From contig NZ_LT607753.1 in NCBI RefSeq assembly GCF_900090295.1, positions 1,922,001 to 1,986,000 on the forward strand: DNA of 64,000 bases, in the 5' to 3' direction. Position 1 is the stretch's first letter. Every line of letters begins with the position of its first letter. Shown here in pieces: positions 45,917 to 52,628 of this stretch. A program made the position numbers and the translations under genes. The stretch comes from Micromonospora coxensis (GTDB lineage Bacteria; Actinomycetota; Actinomycetes; Mycobacteriales; Micromonosporaceae). The notes under the pieces were generated by a model. It saw nothing but the letters and a program-made list of their open reading frames with translations. It was not told where the DNA came from and made no database searches.

Positions 45917-46090
45917 CCCCCGCCGACCACGCTGCCGACGCCGTGACCGCGCCGGCCACGCCGTGACCCCGCCGACCGCGCCCGCCGGCCCCCGCCCGGG
46001 TCCCCGGACGCGGCGCCGCCCCCGCACCCGCCACCGGCCGGGCTGTCGGGCTCGCCGGAGGCCGGCGTGGTCGCCCTGGTCAGCACGTGT

Positions 46091-46096
46091 CAGGCT
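46091..46096 (+). promoter_or_regulatory. Predicted -10 box for leaderless fasR mRNA
   Basis: CAGGCT lies 6 bases before the GTG at 46103 and no ribosome site is present. Confidence 0.45.
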
Positions 46097-46102
46097 GGAC
46101 CG

Positions 46103-47359
46103 GTGAGCGAGCCGGGAGGTACCGAGCTGTCGGCCACCCTGCGCCGGATCGAACGGGCGGCGGGGGCGTTGGCCACCGCCAGCGTCTCCCGGATGGACGA
46201 GAGCCTGCCCTGGTTCCGCGAGCTGCCGGCCGACCAGCGCTCCTGGGTCATGCTGGTGGCGCAGGCCGGCGTCCGGTCCCTGGTGCAGTGGCTGCGCGGC
46301 GGCGGGGGCACGACGGACAGCACCCAGGAGGTCTCCGACGAGGTCTTCGCCACCGCCCCGCAGGCCCTGGCGCGCTCGATCACCCTCCAGCAGACCGTGG
46401 CGCTGATCAAGGTGACCATCGACGTGGTCGAGGAGCAGGTGTCGCACCTGGCCGTCAAGGGTGAGGAGCAGCAGCTCCGCGAGGCCGTGCTGCGCTTCTC
46501 CCGGGAGATCGCCTTCGCCGCCGCCCGGGTGTACGCCCGCGCCGCCGAGTCGCGCGGCTCCTGGGACGCCCGGTTGCAGGCGCTGCTGGTGGACGCGCTG
46601 CTGCGGGGCGACTCCCCCGACGTGCTGGCCAGCCGGGCGGCGGCGCTGGGCTGGGCGGACGCCCCGCCGGTCTCGGTGGCGGTGGGCCGCTCCCCCGGCG
46701 GCGAGGTGGCCGCCGTGCTGCACACCGTCTACCGGCAGGCCCGGCGGATCGGGGTGGAGGTGATCGGCGGCGTGCACGGCGACCGGCTGGTGATCGTCCT
46801 GGGCGGCGCCGCCGACCCGGTCGCCGCCACCGAGAAGCTGCTCCCCGCGTTCGGGGACGGACCGGTGGTGGTCGGGCCGGGCGTGCCGAGCCTGGACGAG
46901 GCGACGGAGTCGGCGCGCGCCGCGCTCGCCGGGTTCCGCGCGGCGCCGGCCTGGCCGACCGCGCCGCGCCCGGTCGCCGCGGCGGACCTGCTGCCCGAAC
47001 GGGCCCTGGCCGGCGACGCGGAGGCCCGCCGCCGGCTGCGCCACGACGTCTACGCGGCGCTGGTGCGCGCGGGCGGTGAGCTGCTGGAGACGCTGGACGC
47101 GTTCTTCGCCGCCGGCGGGACGCTGGAGAGCGCGGCCCGGTCCCTGTTCGTGCATCCGAACACGGTCCGCTACCGGCTGCGCCGGATCGCCGAGGTGACC
47201 GGCTTCTCGCCGCTGGCCGCGCGGGACGCGTTCGCCCTGCAGGTGGCGCTGACGGTGGGGCGGCTGGACCCGGTCGTCCCGGCGGTCACCAGCGTCCCGA
47301 CCCAGACAATGACCCCAGCCGTGAGGAAAACGTCACACACGGGTGATGATCGCCGTTGA
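46103..47359 (+). CDS. fasR: FasR-type regulator of fatty acid synthesis (PucR-like HTH)
   Basis: 418 residues. A long N-terminal effector region and a C-terminal PucR-type helix-turn-helix (ESAARSLFVHPNTVRYRLRR). In Streptomyces coelicolor FasR is a protein of this class placed directly before fabD and activates the fabD-fabH-acpP-fabF operon; the same order here makes orthology likely. GTG 46103 was chosen because -10-like CAGGCT precedes it by 6 bases; the frame is open further upstream. It ends 87 bases before fabD. Confidence 0.8.
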   Translation: MSEPGGTELSATLRRIERAAGALATASVSRMDESLPWFRELPADQRSWVMLVAQAGVRSLVQWLRGGGGTTDSTQEVSDEVFATAPQALARSITLQQTVALIKVTIDVVEEQVSHLAVKGEEQQLREAVLRFSREIAFAAARVYARAAESRGSWDARLQALLVDALLRGDSPDVLASRAAALGWADAPPVSVAVGRSPGGEVAAVLHTVYRQARRIGVEVIGGVHGDRLVIVLGGAADPVAATEKLLPAFGDGPVVVGPGVPSLDEATESARAALAGFRAAPAWPTAPRPVAAADLLPERALAGDAEARRRLRHDVYAALVRAGGELLETLDAFFAAGGTLESAARSLFVHPNTVRYRLRRIAEVTGFSPLAARDAFALQVALTVGRLDPVVPAVTSVPTQTMTPAVRKTSHTGDDRR

Positions 47360-47398: not shown

Positions 47399-47446
47399 TT
47401 GGTGCCGACACAGCGCTACCCACGCGTATCCAGGAGAGTCATAGAC

Positions 47447-48616
47447 GTGCTCGCCGTACTCTCTCCCGGCCAGGGTTCCCAGAAACCCGGCTTCCTGACC
47501 CCCTGGCTCGATCTGTCCGGCGCCGAGGCACGGCTGCGCTGGTGGTCCGCGCTCGCCGGGGTCGACCTGCTGCACCTCGGCACGAAGGCCGACGCCGACG
47601 AGATCAAGGACACCGCCCGGACGCAGCCGCTGCTGGTGGCCGCCGCCCTGCTGGCCGCCGAGCACCTGCCGATGTACGACGTCTCGCTCACCGCCGGGCA
47701 CAGCGTCGGCGAGCTGAGCGCCGCCGCCCTGGCCGGGGTCCTCCCGGCCGAGGCCGCGATCACCCTCGCCGGGGTACGCGGACGCGAGATGGCCGCCGCC
47801 TGCGCGCTGGAGCCGACCGGGATGGCCGCCGTACTCGGCGGCGACACCGACGAGGTCCTCGCCGCGCTCGCCGCGCACGGGCTGCACCCGGCCAACCGCA
47901 ACGGCGCCGGCCAGATCGTCGCCGCCGGCAGCCTGGACGCGCTGGACAAGCTCGCCGCCGAGCCGCCCGCGAAGAGCCGGGTGATCCGGCTCAAGGTGGC
48001 CGGCGCGTTCCACACCCCGTACATGGCGCCGGCCGAGGCCGCGCTCGCCGCGGTGGCCGCCGGGATCACCACCGCCGACCCGCGCCGGATCCTGCTGTCG
48101 AACCTCGACGGCGCGGCCGTCAACCACGGCCGGGAGATGGTGCAGCGGCTGGTCCGCCAGGTCACCGCCCCGGTCCGCTGGGACCTGTGCATGCGCACCC
48201 TGGCCGACCTCGGCGTCACCGGCGTGATCGAACTGCCCCCGGCCGGCACCCTGGCCGGCCTGGTCAAGCGGGAGCTCAAGGACAGCGGCGTCCCCGAGAT
48301 CGTCTCCCTGAACACCCCCGACGACCTGCCCGCGGCCCGCGACCTGATCGCCCGGCACAGTGGCCTGCGCGGCCACGAGCCGGTGGTCCAGTTCCGGGTG
48401 GTCGTCTCGCCCGTCGCGGGCACCTTCGAACCGGACGCGGAGCTCGCCGAGGGCGCCGACCTCCGCACCGGCCAGGTGATCGGCCACATCGCCACCCGAC
48501 AGGGGCCGGTCGAGGTCACCGCGCACGACAGCGGGCTGCTCACCGAGTGGCTCGCCCACCACGACGACCCGGTCGCCCCGGGTCAGCCCCTCGCCCGCAT
48601 CGGAGGCCACGCATGA
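47447..48616 (+). CDS. fabD: Malonyl-CoA:ACP transacylase with extra C-terminal biotinyl/lipoyl-like domain
   Basis: 389 residues; ordinary FabD has about 310. It moves malonyl groups from CoA to ACP. Nucleophile S86 in GHSVGEL, H189 in GAFHTPYM and the N-terminal LSPGQGSQ are present. Residues 314-387 (VVVSPVAGTFEPDAEL to VAPGQPLARIG) have the pattern of a biotinyl/lipoyl barrel-sandwich domain, but the site of the modified lysine reads ATRQGP. GTG 47447 has AGGAGA 9 bases upstream. The stop overlaps the 24-codon ORF's ATG. Confidence 0.92.
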   Translation: MLAVLSPGQGSQKPGFLTPWLDLSGAEARLRWWSALAGVDLLHLGTKADADEIKDTARTQPLLVAAALLAAEHLPMYDVSLTAGHSVGELSAAALAGVLPAEAAITLAGVRGREMAAACALEPTGMAAVLGGDTDEVLAALAAHGLHPANRNGAGQIVAAGSLDALDKLAAEPPAKSRVIRLKVAGAFHTPYMAPAEAALAAVAAGITTADPRRILLSNLDGAAVNHGREMVQRLVRQVTAPVRWDLCMRTLADLGVTGVIELPPAGTLAGLVKRELKDSGVPEIVSLNTPDDLPAARDLIARHSGLRGHEPVVQFRVVVSPVAGTFEPDAELAEGADLRTGQVIGHIATRQGPVEVTAHDSGLLTEWLAHHDDPVAPGQPLARIGGHA

Positions 48617-48687
48617 GCGAGCCCAACAACAGGCACCGCGCCGGCACGGACCGGGCCGAGGCCGGCCGCACGGAGGCGACGGCATGA
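48613..48687 (+). CDS. 24-codon ORF coupled to fabD and fabH
   Basis: Its ATG overlaps the fabD stop (ATGA at 48613) and its TGA overlaps the fabH start (ATGA at 48684). CGGAGG and GGAGG sites lie 7 bases before both starts. It encodes MSEPNNRHRAGTDRAEAGRT plus four residues; hydrophilic, no family known. It may simply couple translation or give a small peptide. Confidence 0.5.
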   Translation: MSEPNNRHRAGTDRAEAGRTEATA

Positions 48688-49640
48688 GCAGGCCCGTCAC
48701 CGGCAGCCGGATCCTCGCGCTCGGCCACTACCAGCCCTCGCGGGTGGTGACCAACGACGACCTCGCCCAGCTCGTCGACACCAACGACGAGTGGATCCGG
48801 GACCGGGTCGGCATCGTCTCCCGGCGGATCGCCGACGGCGAGTCGGTGGCCGACATGGCGACCGCCGCCGCCGGCAAGGCCCTGGCCAACTCCGGCCTCA
48901 CCGCCGCCGACATCGACCTGGTCGTCGTCGCCACCTGCACCTCCATCGACCGCAGCCCGAACGTGGCCTGCCGGGTCGCCGCCAAGCTGGGCATCACCGC
49001 CCCCGGGGCGTACGACATCAACACGGCCTGCTCGGGCTTCGCGTACGCGCTCGGCACGGTGGACCACGCGATCCGGGCCGGAGCGGCGCGCAACGCGATC
49101 GTCATCGGCGCGGAGAAGCTCTCCGACTTCACCGACTGGACCGACCGCTCGACCTGCATCATCTTCGGCGACGGCGCCGGCGCGGCGGTGGTCACCGCCA
49201 CCGGCGACGGCGAGCCCGCCGGGGTCGGCCCGGTGGTCTGGGGATCGGTGCCGGAGAAGAGCGACGCGGTACGGATCGAGGGCTGGCGCCCGTACATCGC
49301 GCAGGAGGGGCAGGCGGTCTTCCGCTGGGCCACCACCGCGCTGGCGCCGCTGGCCCTGCAGGCCTGCGAGCGCGCCGGGGTCGCCCCGTCGGAGCTGGCC
49401 GCGTTCGTGCCGCACCAGGCCAACGGCCGGATCATCGACGGCATCGCCAAGCGGCTCGGCATCCCGCAGGCCATCATCGCCAAGGACATCGTCGAGTCCG
49501 GCAACACCTCGGCGGCGAGCGTGCCGCTGGCCCTGTCCAAGCTGGTCGAGCGGCGGGAGGTGCCCTCGGGCGCCCCGGTGCTGCTCTTCGGCTTCGGCGG
49601 TGGCCTGACCTACGCCGGTCAGGTCGTCCGCTGCCCCTGA
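48684..49640 (+). CDS. fabH: 3-oxoacyl-ACP synthase III (KAS III)
   Basis: 318 residues. Catalytic C116 (DINTACSGFAYAL), H244 (VPHQANGRI) and N274 (ESGNTSAAS). It starts fatty acid synthesis by condensing acyl-CoA primers with malonyl-ACP; in branched-chain-fatty-acid actinobacteria it accepts isobutyryl-type primers. Translation is coupled to the preceding small ORF. Confidence 0.96.
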   Translation: MSRPVTGSRILALGHYQPSRVVTNDDLAQLVDTNDEWIRDRVGIVSRRIADGESVADMATAAAGKALANSGLTAADIDLVVVATCTSIDRSPNVACRVAAKLGITAPGAYDINTACSGFAYALGTVDHAIRAGAARNAIVIGAEKLSDFTDWTDRSTCIIFGDGAGAAVVTATGDGEPAGVGPVVWGSVPEKSDAVRIEGWRPYIAQEGQAVFRWATTALAPLALQACERAGVAPSELAAFVPHQANGRIIDGIAKRLGIPQAIIAKDIVESGNTSAASVPLALSKLVERREVPSGAPVLLFGFGGGLTYAGQVVRCP

Positions 49641-49716: not shown

Positions 49717-49956
49717 ATGACCCGTGACGAGATCACCACCGGCCTCGCCGAGATCCTCGAAGAGGTTGCCGGGGTGAACCCGGACGACGTGGCCGAGGGG
49801 AAGTCCTTCACCGACGACCTCGACGTCGACTCGCTCTCCATGGTGGAGGTCGTGGTGGCGGCCGAGGAGAAGTTCGGCGTCAAGATCCCGGACAACGAGG
49901 TGCAGAACCTCAAGACCGTCGGCGACGCCGTCAGCTACATCGAGGCGCAGTCCTGA
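49717..49956 (+). CDS. acpP: Acyl carrier protein
   Basis: 79 residues. Phosphopantetheine attachment at S39 in DLDVDSLSMVE. The strong site GGAGAGGAAA and own gap of 76 bases fit higher expression. Carries the growing chain between FabH and FabF. Confidence 0.96.
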   Translation: MTRDEITTGLAEILEEVAGVNPDDVAEGKSFTDDLDVDSLSMVEVVVAAEEKFGVKIPDNEVQNLKTVGDAVSYIEAQS

Positions 49957-49957
49957 T

Positions 49958-51184
49958 ATGAGTCGTCCCGACGTCGTCGTCACCGGGCTCGGCGCGACCA
50001 CCCCGCTGGGCGGGGACGTCGCGTCGACCTGGGACGCCATGCTCGCCGGCCGCTCCGGGGTGGGTCCGCTCACCCAGGAGTGGGCCGCGCAGCTCCCCGT
50101 CCAGATCGCCGCCCAGCTCGCGGTCGATCCCGCCGAGGTGCTGGAGCGGGTCAAGCTTCGCCGGCTGGACCGCTCCGAGGCGATCGCCCTGATCGCCGCC
50201 CACCAGGCCTGGGCCGACGCCGGCCTCGCCGACTCCGGGCTGGACCCGGAGCGGCTCGCCGTCAGCGTCGGCTCCGGCATCGGCGGCGCCACCACCCTGC
50301 TCGCCCAGGACGACATCCTGGAGAAGTCCGGCCCGCGGCGGGTCTCCCCGCACACGGTGCCGATGCTGATGCCCAACGGCCCGGCCGCCTGGGTCGGGCT
50401 GGAGCTGGGCGCCAAGGCCGGCGTGCACTCGGTGGCCAGCGCCTGCGCCACCGGCGCCGAGGCCATCGCGCTCGGCCTGGACATCATCCGCGCCGGCCGG
50501 GCCGACGTGGTGGTGGCCGGCGGCACCGAGGCGGTCATCCACCCGCTGCCGATCGCCGGGTTCGCCTCGATGCGGGCCATGTCGACCCGCAACGACGAGC
50601 CCGAGCGGGCCTCCCGTCCGTGGGACAAGGGCCGCGACGGCTTCGTCCTCGGTGAGGGCGCCGGCATCGTGGTGCTGGAACGCGCCGACCACGCCGCCGC
50701 CCGCGGCGCCCGGGTGTACGCGCGCCTCGCCGGTGCCGGCATCACCTCCGACGCGTACGACATGGTGCAGCCGCACGCCGAGGGCGAGGGGGCCATCAGG
50801 GCAATCCGGAAGGCGATTGCGGACGCCGACGTCGCCAAAATGGACATCATGCACGTCAACGCGCACGCGACGTCGACGCCGGTGGGCGACATGTTGGAGA
50901 TCGGGGCGCTGCACCAGGCACTCGGGGACCACCCGGTGCTGGCGGCGACCAAGTCGATGACCGGTCACCTGCTCGGCGCGGCCGGGGCGTTGGAGTCGAT
51001 CGCCACCATCCTGGCGATCCGCGACGGTGTCGTACCTCCGACCATCAACCTGGACGACCCCGACGACGGCCTGACCATGGACGTGGCCGCACACGAGGCG
51101 CGCCACATGGAGATCCCCGCCGCGCTGAACAACGCGTTCGGCTTCGGCGGCCACAACGTGGCTCTCGTCTTCACGCGCGCCTGA
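49958..51184 (+). CDS. fabF: 3-oxoacyl-ACP synthase II (KAS II)
   Basis: 408 residues. Catalytic C163 (ASACATGAEA), H303 (NAHATSTPVGD) and H399 (FGFGGHN), with K332 nearby. Extends acyl-ACP by two carbons from malonyl-ACP. Its ATG is one base after the acpP stop. Confidence 0.96.
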   Translation: MSRPDVVVTGLGATTPLGGDVASTWDAMLAGRSGVGPLTQEWAAQLPVQIAAQLAVDPAEVLERVKLRRLDRSEAIALIAAHQAWADAGLADSGLDPERLAVSVGSGIGGATTLLAQDDILEKSGPRRVSPHTVPMLMPNGPAAWVGLELGAKAGVHSVASACATGAEAIALGLDIIRAGRADVVVAGGTEAVIHPLPIAGFASMRAMSTRNDEPERASRPWDKGRDGFVLGEGAGIVVLERADHAAARGARVYARLAGAGITSDAYDMVQPHAEGEGAIRAIRKAIADADVAKMDIMHVNAHATSTPVGDMLEIGALHQALGDHPVLAATKSMTGHLLGAAGALESIATILAIRDGVVPPTINLDDPDDGLTMDVAAHEARHMEIPAALNNAFGFGGHNVALVFTRA

Positions 51185-51206
51185 GACCACACCCTTGGAG
51201 GCTCAA

Positions 51207-52628
51207 GTGACCACCACCGCAATCAGCGCGGACACCTCGACAGCCGACCACCGCGATCCCGAGGTGCGGCTGCGGGCGTTGTTCGACGCGGGTTCGTTGC
51301 GTCTGTGTGTGTCGCGGGACGAGTCGGGGGTGGTGTGGGCGCGGGGTGAGGTGGAGGGCTCACCGGTGGTGGCGTACGCCACGGATGCCACCCGGATGGG
51401 TGGTGCGATGGGCACCGAGGGGTGTCGGCGGGTGGTGGACGCGATCGACACGGCGGTGCGTGAGCGGGTGCCGGTGGTGGGGTTGTGGCATTCGGGTGGG
51501 GCACGGCTGGCCGAGGGTGTGGTCGCGTTGGACGCCGTCGGTCAGGTGTTCGCGGCGATGGTGCGGGCCTCGGGGCGGGTGCCGCAGATCTCGGTGGTGT
51601 TGGGTCCGGCCGCGGGTGGGGCGGCGTACGGTCCGGCGTTGACCGACATCGTGGTGATGAGTGGGGCGGGTCGGATCTTCGTGACCGGTCCGGAGGTGGT
51701 GCGCTCGGTCACCGGTGAGCAGGTCGACATGGAGCGCCTCGGTGGGCCGGAGCCGCACGGCCGCCGCTCGGGGGTGGTGCACGTGACGTGCGCCGACGAC
51801 GAGACGGCGCTGGAGCGGGCGCGGACGTTGGCGGCGTTGTTGGGTCGTCAGGGCCGGCTGTCGCCGGATGACGTGCCGGTCGGGGACGAGTCGCACGATC
51901 TGGCGGCGAAGATGCCGACCGAGGCGAACCGGGCCTACGACGTCAAGCCGGTCGTCGCCGCGCTGCTCGACGGTCCGGGTGTGGAGTTGCACGCCAAGTG
52001 GGCGCCGAACGTGGTGACCACGCTGGGGCGTTTCGCCGGGCGCACGGTCGGGGTGATCGCGAACAACCCGTTGCGGCTGGGGGGTTGTCTGGACGCGTCC
52101 AGCGCGGAGAAGGCGGCCCGGTTCGTGCGCATGTGCGACAGCCTCGGAGTGCCGTTGATCGTGCTGGTCGACGTGCCCGGCTACCTGCCCGGCCTCGGTC
52201 AGGAATGGGACGGCGTGGTACGCCGCGGCGCGAAGCTGCTGCACGCCTTCGCCGAAGCCGTCGTGCCCCGGGTCACCCTGGTCACCCGCAAGGCCTACGG
52301 CGGCGCCTACATCGCCATGAACTCCCGTAGCCTCGGCGCGACCGCGGTGTTCGCCTGGCCGAACGCCGAAGTCGCCGTCATGGGCGCCAGCGCCGCGGTC
52401 AACATCCTGCACCGCAAGACCCTCGCCGCCGCCGCACCCGAAGACCGCGAAACCCTCCGCGCGCAGTTGATCGAGGAGCAGATCCGCACCGCCGGCGGCG
52501 TCAACCGCGCCTTGGAGATCGGCGTCGTCGACGACGTCATCAAACCCGACGAAACCCGACGCCGCATCGCCGAAGCCCTCGCCACCGCCCCCGCCGCCCG
52601 GGGCGCGCACGGCAACATCCCGCTGTAA
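51207..52628 (+). CDS. accD6: Acyl-CoA carboxylase carboxyltransferase (AccD6-like)
   Basis: 473 residues from the GTG preceded by TTGGAGG. Carboxyltransferase features: SGGARLAEGVVAL (acyl-CoA site side), GPAAGGAAYGPAL, then PGYLPGLGQEWDGVVRRGAK and RKAYGGAYIAMNSR in the C-terminal half. In Mycobacterium tuberculosis accD6 has the same place and length at the end of the fas-II operon, so malonyl-CoA supply is the likely role. The biotinylated alpha subunit is not in the window. Codon use switches within the gene: up to about 52130 it favours G- and T-ending codons, after that C-ending ones. Confidence 0.9.
   Translation: MTTTAISADTSTADHRDPEVRLRALFDAGSLRLCVSRDESGVVWARGEVEGSPVVAYATDATRMGGAMGTEGCRRVVDAIDTAVRERVPVVGLWHSGGARLAEGVVALDAVGQVFAAMVRASGRVPQISVVLGPAAGGAAYGPALTDIVVMSGAGRIFVTGPEVVRSVTGEQVDMERLGGPEPHGRRSGVVHVTCADDETALERARTLAALLGRQGRLSPDDVPVGDESHDLAAKMPTEANRAYDVKPVVAALLDGPGVELHAKWAPNVVTTLGRFAGRTVGVIANNPLRLGGCLDASSAEKAARFVRMCDSLGVPLIVLVDVPGYLPGLGQEWDGVVRRGAKLLHAFAEAVVPRVTLVTRKAYGGAYIAMNSRSLGATAVFAWPNAEVAVMGASAAVNILHRKTLAAAAPEDRETLRAQLIEEQIRTAGGVNRALEIGVVDDVIKPDETRRRIAEALATAPAARGAHGNIPL

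Follow-up and report, generated by a model that had tools for sequence, protein, structure and literature searches.

The window, that is, the whole 64,000-nucleotide stretch of Micromonospora coxensis DNA analysed here, contains a fab operon with the gene order regulator, fabD, fabH, acpP, fabF, accD, all on the forward strand. The regulator gene (46067..47359), for which we assume the name FasR-like, keeps its position upstream of fabD in relatives. It is followed by fabD (47447..48616), which has a GTG start and a ribosome-binding sequence, AGGAG, at 47432-47436, and encodes a protein of 389 amino acids; by fabH (48684..49640) and fabF (49958..51184), both named from sequence and operon context, with acpP for a 79-residue acyl carrier protein (49717..49956) between them; and by accD (51195..52628), the gene for the 477-residue carboxyltransferase subunit of an acyl-CoA carboxylase (Carboxyl_trans, 2.3e-125), which is the last gene of the operon, as the initial annotation had it.

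A profile search with the fabD product identifies Acyl_transf_1 at 1.2e-20. Among the NCBIfam models, the match to TIGR00128 (fabD; E 1.3e-49) reaches 169.2 bits, under the equivalog cut-off of 260.9, and the match to TIGR03131 (malonate decarboxylase epsilon) reaches 172 bits, likewise under its cut-off of 297.9. Given that neither cut-off is reached, the assignment is based on the fab operon context and on the match to the structure 1nm2 (6.4e-134). The motifs GHSVGE and AFHT are invariant in 63 FabD relatives, as are S86, R111 and H189, which presumably are catalytic. Judging from these comparisons, the product of 47447-48616 is FabD, malonyl-CoA:ACP transacylase. The usual transacylase corresponds to residues 1 to about 305, and the structures 1nm2 and 1mla, which we take to be FabD proteins of the S. 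coelicolor and E. coli type, end there, in line with the earlier statement that FabD of E. coli or Streptomyces stops short of the extra part. The remainder consists of a flexible linker (residues 305-313, 48359..48385; pLDDT below 50 at residues 308-312) and an additional domain (residues 314-387, 48386..48607).

The initial annotation proposed that this tail has the fold of the swinging biotinyl/lipoyl domains but not their lysine, and suggested structure prediction and a profile search as checks; the fold without its lysine is borne out. The predicted structure of residues from about 314 to 387 is a barrel-sandwich, the fold of the biotinyl/lipoyl superfamily, and its nearest structural neighbors are biotin carriers (BCCP). 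The tail of the window protein itself scores 20.1 bits against PF00364, somewhat below the family cut-off of 22.1 bits, and the same profile matches the FabD tails of all 50 relatives compared at E<=0.01 (best match, 5.9e-12). Weak matches to HlyD_3, Biotin_lipoyl_2 and RND_mfp were obtained for 37, 48 and 41 of these 50 tails, respectively, and second place among the profile matches goes to a lipoyl E2. On the strength of the profiles and the structural model, the tail is homologous to biotinyl/lipoyl domains, with BCCP as the closest structure; as to ancestry, the modeled structure favors BCCP over a lipoyl domain. In the literature covered, which is without most subscription journals, no title or abstract describing this domain was found.

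The MKM biotinylation motif is replaced by the hairpin tip T350-R351-Q352-G353 (48494..48505), and Q352 (48500-48502) is aligned with the modified lysine. In 63 named FabD tails, this column contains arginine in 55, glutamine in 8 and lysine in none; in 90 tails, mostly from the same genus, it contains glutamine in 83, arginine in 5, threonine and alanine in one each and, again, no lysine, the two sets being partly overlapping. ATRQGP is the form of the hairpin in Micromonosporaceae, and TLRDE or SRREE are found in other families. The lysine at the hairpin tip that defines a functional biotin or lipoate carrier is thus missing, so that the tail cannot be biotinylated or lipoylated, and the possibility that it is an active carrier is ruled out. 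E367, D374 and R384 are conserved across families, as are several of the glycines and prolines of the tail.

FabD proteins with the tail give full-length matches in many families of the class, including Geodermatophilaceae, Nocardioides, Kribbella, Jiangella, Propionibacteriaceae, Nanopelagicales and others; the nearest named record is M. mirobrigensis (88%). In a scan of 336 genomes across the phylum, a profile of the tail, which strongly divergent tails could escape, identified 25 genomes at E<=1e-10, including three below 1e-20, all in the same class. Wide conservation of the extension in actinobacteria is borne out, but its distribution is patchy within Micromonosporaceae, where 138 of the 300 genomes have the tail at E<=1e-12 (four more matches, from about 1e-13 to 1e-12, sit elsewhere in genomes already counted) and FabD itself is present in 298. 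Simple lineage-wide conservation is accordingly rejected. Two individual cases stand apart. A contig binned as Bifidobacterium breve (L097) encodes a FabD tail nearly identical to those of small-genome actinobacteria from other families (L039, L041, L042) and is probably mis-binned; a locus named Streptomyces sp. SCUT-3 (L095) has a FabD with the domain together with accD, in contrast to the FabD of Streptomyces type whose structure is known; something may be unusual about either the name or the gene.

In Micromonospora, FabDs without the domain have a wide variety of short ends. Several of these, among them LIARIGGRS, LIARHGSAPGQPLARIGGHA and LIARHGTPGQPLAPIGGLS, still include the final residues of the domain. 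There are 41 different tails among the 65 domainless Micromonospora loci, and a tree of 70 fabD cores requires at least 11 changes of domain state. These losses are in-frame deletions. The LIARIGGRS scar, present in exactly this form in 22 of the 65 loci, corresponds to a 243-bp deletion between two copies of the direct repeat TCGCCCG, the 7-bp repeat being clearly seen in L175 and L197. The same repeats flank the domain in the window, the left copy (48348..48354) in the codons of I301-A302-R303 and the right copy (48591..48597) in those of L382-A383-R384, 243 bp apart and in frame. Most of the other junctions contain no clear repeat, and several (L229, L305, L253, L301) are poorly aligned; with a clear 7-bp repeat confined to the LIARIGGRS group, such repeats are rejected as the cause of all the deletions. 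Geodermatophilus TF02-6 (L123) carries a distinct scar of its own. In L253, L301 and related loci, the domainless FabD has acquired a new, unrelated tail of about 20-30 residues with a GEASS-like end.

The presence of the domain was compared with that of accD in 150 Micromonospora genomes, the operon included (the genome of the window and 149 others; one of 151, G596, was left out). Both are present in 52 of these (in one, L257, AccD is aligned over 294 residues only), the domain alone in 33, neither in 65, and accD with a domainless FabD in none. On a bootstrapped tree built from the codons of fabH, fabF and the fabD core, which is an operon tree rather than a species tree and was read assuming no regain, about 11 losses of the domain are mapped: none with accD present, three after the loss of accD and eight on the same branch as that loss, where either event may have come first. 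The rate of domain loss is close to 0 with accD and 10.3 without it, and a model with separate rates is better (2dlnL 19.25, p 1.1e-5), although exchange of whole operons could lower the number of independent events. In Micromonospora, loss of the domain is confined to lineages without accD, suggesting a joint function of the two proteins. The loss of accD is itself frequent: on the operon tree, the gene disappeared from its place downstream of fabF about 19 times (L175-L323), in 11 cases with the domain kept. Six accD-less loci were inspected; in three of them, fabF is directly adjoined by the gene located after accD in the window, indicating that accD alone is missing there. In a family scan, the best matches in accD-less Micromonospora genomes are near 1e-120, and in G095, G538 and G564 a 63-70% copy lies elsewhere.

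Selection on the domain follows the same division. In comparisons of non-overlapping pairs, dN/dS of the domain is 0.27 where AccD is present (0.222-0.315; 26 pairs) and 0.585 where it is absent (0.485-0.706; 16 pairs that are not fully independent, since six come from one clade and five span two clades of accD loss). A rerun with controls gave 0.272 versus 0.561, a difference reached in 0 of 10000 permutations. In the same pairs, the values for FabH (0.148 with accD, 0.130 without; ratio 0.88) and FabF (0.173 and 0.147; ratio 0.85) do not rise, and that for the FabD core rises slightly, from 0.177 to 0.227 (1.28-fold, p 0.034). Selection on the domain is relaxed where accD is gone. Since FabH and FabF are not relaxed, the pathway as a whole shows no such trend, and the decay is specific to the domain. 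The TRQG tip is kept in all 52 Micromonospora loci with accD. Among the 33 that retain the domain without accD, T, R, Q and G are kept in 23, 24, 28 and 32, respectively, with most of the drift stemming from one group of eight loci; T326 and R340 drift more than the hairpin tip in these sequences.

Beyond the genus, the association has exceptions. Among named loci with enough sequence, a set that partly overlaps the genus set, the operon includes accD in 53 of the 58 that have the domain and in 3 of the 17 that do not; among the matches listed class-wide, it lies downstream of 77 of 97 long FabDs and of 20 of 50 short ones. The double loss recurs in two further families: Geodermatophilus L123 and Propionibacteriaceae L118 have neither the domain nor an operon accD, and the listed relatives with enough sequence have both. 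Conversely, accD accompanies a domainless FabD in Catellatospora L064, Pseudofrankia L111 and Williamsia L122, and the domain occurs without accD in L085 and L091. When 11 loci of other genera are added to the tree, three domain losses with accD present appear (Catellatospora-like L324-L329), and the dependence gives p 9.2e-5. The rule that the domain is lost or relaxed only in the absence of accD thus holds in Micromonospora and fails in the Catellatospora-like loci, Williamsia and Pseudofrankia, so that only among the sampled Micromonospora genomes is the dependence strict. The link from FabD to AccD that the initial annotation envisaged for the domain accordingly gains strong indirect support from the genome counts, the tree and the relaxed selection, but not as a universal rule. 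For its other suggestion, docking of ACP, the retention of acpP with or without the domain speaks neither way. The locus L083 from Fodinicola, in which the matches to fabD, fabF and accD are fragmentary or lack an intact frame, was dropped from the set of named loci; the broken matches probably represent assembly errors.

The genome to which the window belongs also encodes, outside the window and unlinked to fabD (C1:6433187-6438991; L347:1188-6992), a single-chain, eukaryote-like acyl-CoA carboxylase of 1934 amino acids that combines biotin carboxylase, biotinyl, ACC_central and carboxyltransferase parts and coexists with the operon AccD. Of the Micromonospora genomes tried, 14 of 14 without accD and 4 of 5 with it contain the carboxyltransferase part of this protein (18 of 19 altogether), the exception, G512, being a fragmented assembly. 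In a study of Saccharopolyspora erythraea, the single-chain acyl-CoA carboxylase SACE_4237 is described as a source of malonyl-CoA for fatty acids, with orthologues reported in Micromonosporaceae (PMC6491548). A second acetyl-CoA carboxylase of this single-chain kind may account for the dispensability of accD. Elsewhere in the same genome (C1:6214215-6382637), a modular polyketide synthase cluster shows up as a long series of acyltransferase matches within open reading frames of very large size (up to 10195 amino acids).

Taken together, these observations make it probable, in our judgment, that a carrier-like domain that cannot be biotinylated lets FabD work with the carboxyltransferase of its operon, most likely by docking on AccD. 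Under the proposed mechanism, the tail, a biotinyl/lipoyl-type domain that has given up its lysine, would help FabD to cooperate with the acyl-CoA carboxylase to which the AccD from the operon end belongs. The tethered tail would make physical contact with AccD in a manner resembling that of BCCP, perhaps in or close to the docking site of the true biotin carrier, and docking would keep FabD beside the site of malonyl-CoA release, so that the transacylase could capture its substrate. A more specific version can be put forward tentatively, namely that FabD inserts a dead biotin-carrier hairpin into AccD, that the first committed enzyme of fatty acid synthesis and its successor are thereby joined in one physical unit that hands on malonyl-CoA, and that the pseudo-carrier is a docking key which disappears each time a second, single-chain carboxylase takes over and accD is given up. 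Whether acetyl-CoA carboxylase transfers malonyl-CoA directly to FabD has long been asked in the study of bacterial fatty acid synthesis. The genus Micromonospora amounts to a natural deletion experiment repeated many times, in which FabD gives up its domain only in the absence of accD, and the coupling names a candidate partner (AccD), a domain and a hairpin, along with strains with and without each.

The same comparative evidence, that is, the dependence on accD, the BCCP-like fold and the lysine-less tip, would fit a regulatory role, in which the dead mimic of the carrier, sitting on AccD, would slow down the carboxylase whenever FabD is free, providing feedback between the two steps; nothing in the data separates such regulation from tethering, and we regard it as rather unlikely. 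An action on FabD itself or on ACP, through folding, dimerisation or ACP capture, with an indirect link to accD in that the action would matter only when flux passes through the operon carboxylase, appears unlikely: the linker is flexible, dN/dS of the FabD core is slightly higher without accD, and acpP remains in the operon with or without the domain, as fabH and fabF do in domainless operons, so that these partners could be served either way, but the unrelaxed FabH and FabF indicate decay specific to the domain. It is quite improbable that common descent, or exchange of operons among strains that had lost both the domain and accD, has produced the association as an artefact. The eight domain losses that share a branch with accD loss and the use of an operon tree are compatible with such an origin, but the scars differ between clades, the 33 genomes that keep the domain without accD have a doubled dN/dS, and the pattern recurs in the Geodermatophilus and Propionibacteriaceae loci. 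Finally, a neutral, functionless relic, to which the many deletions within one genus might point, is rejected as scarcely credible given the dN/dS of 0.27 where accD is present and the residues conserved across families.

Several known systems come close to the window protein. Type II FabDs of known structure (1nm2, 1mla, 2qc3) have in common with it the core from residue 1 to about 305 and the catalytic motifs but stop ahead of the additional domain. The biotin carboxyl carrier domains of acetyl-CoA and related carboxylases (PF00364; 4hr7, 1bdo, 1o78) belong to the carboxylases themselves and possess the modifiable lysine, whereas the FabD domain is fused to the C-terminus of the transacylase and has arginine or glutamine in this position. 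The HlyD_3, Biotin_lipoyl_2 and RND_mfp domains of membrane fusion proteins and others share with the tail both the superfamily and the absence of that lysine; these, however, are found in periplasmic adaptors, and the tail in a soluble enzyme of fatty acid synthesis. In mycobacteria, the operon fabD-acp-kas-accD6 shows the same succession of fab genes and accD as the window, and Williamsia L122 (fabD, acp, fabF, accD) is similarly arranged, but the Williamsia FabD differs from that of the window in being devoid of the domain. The 1934-residue protein, in turn, resembles SACE_4237 of Saccharopolyspora erythraea (PMC6491548) in being a single-chain carboxylase, a likeness that does not imply orthology.
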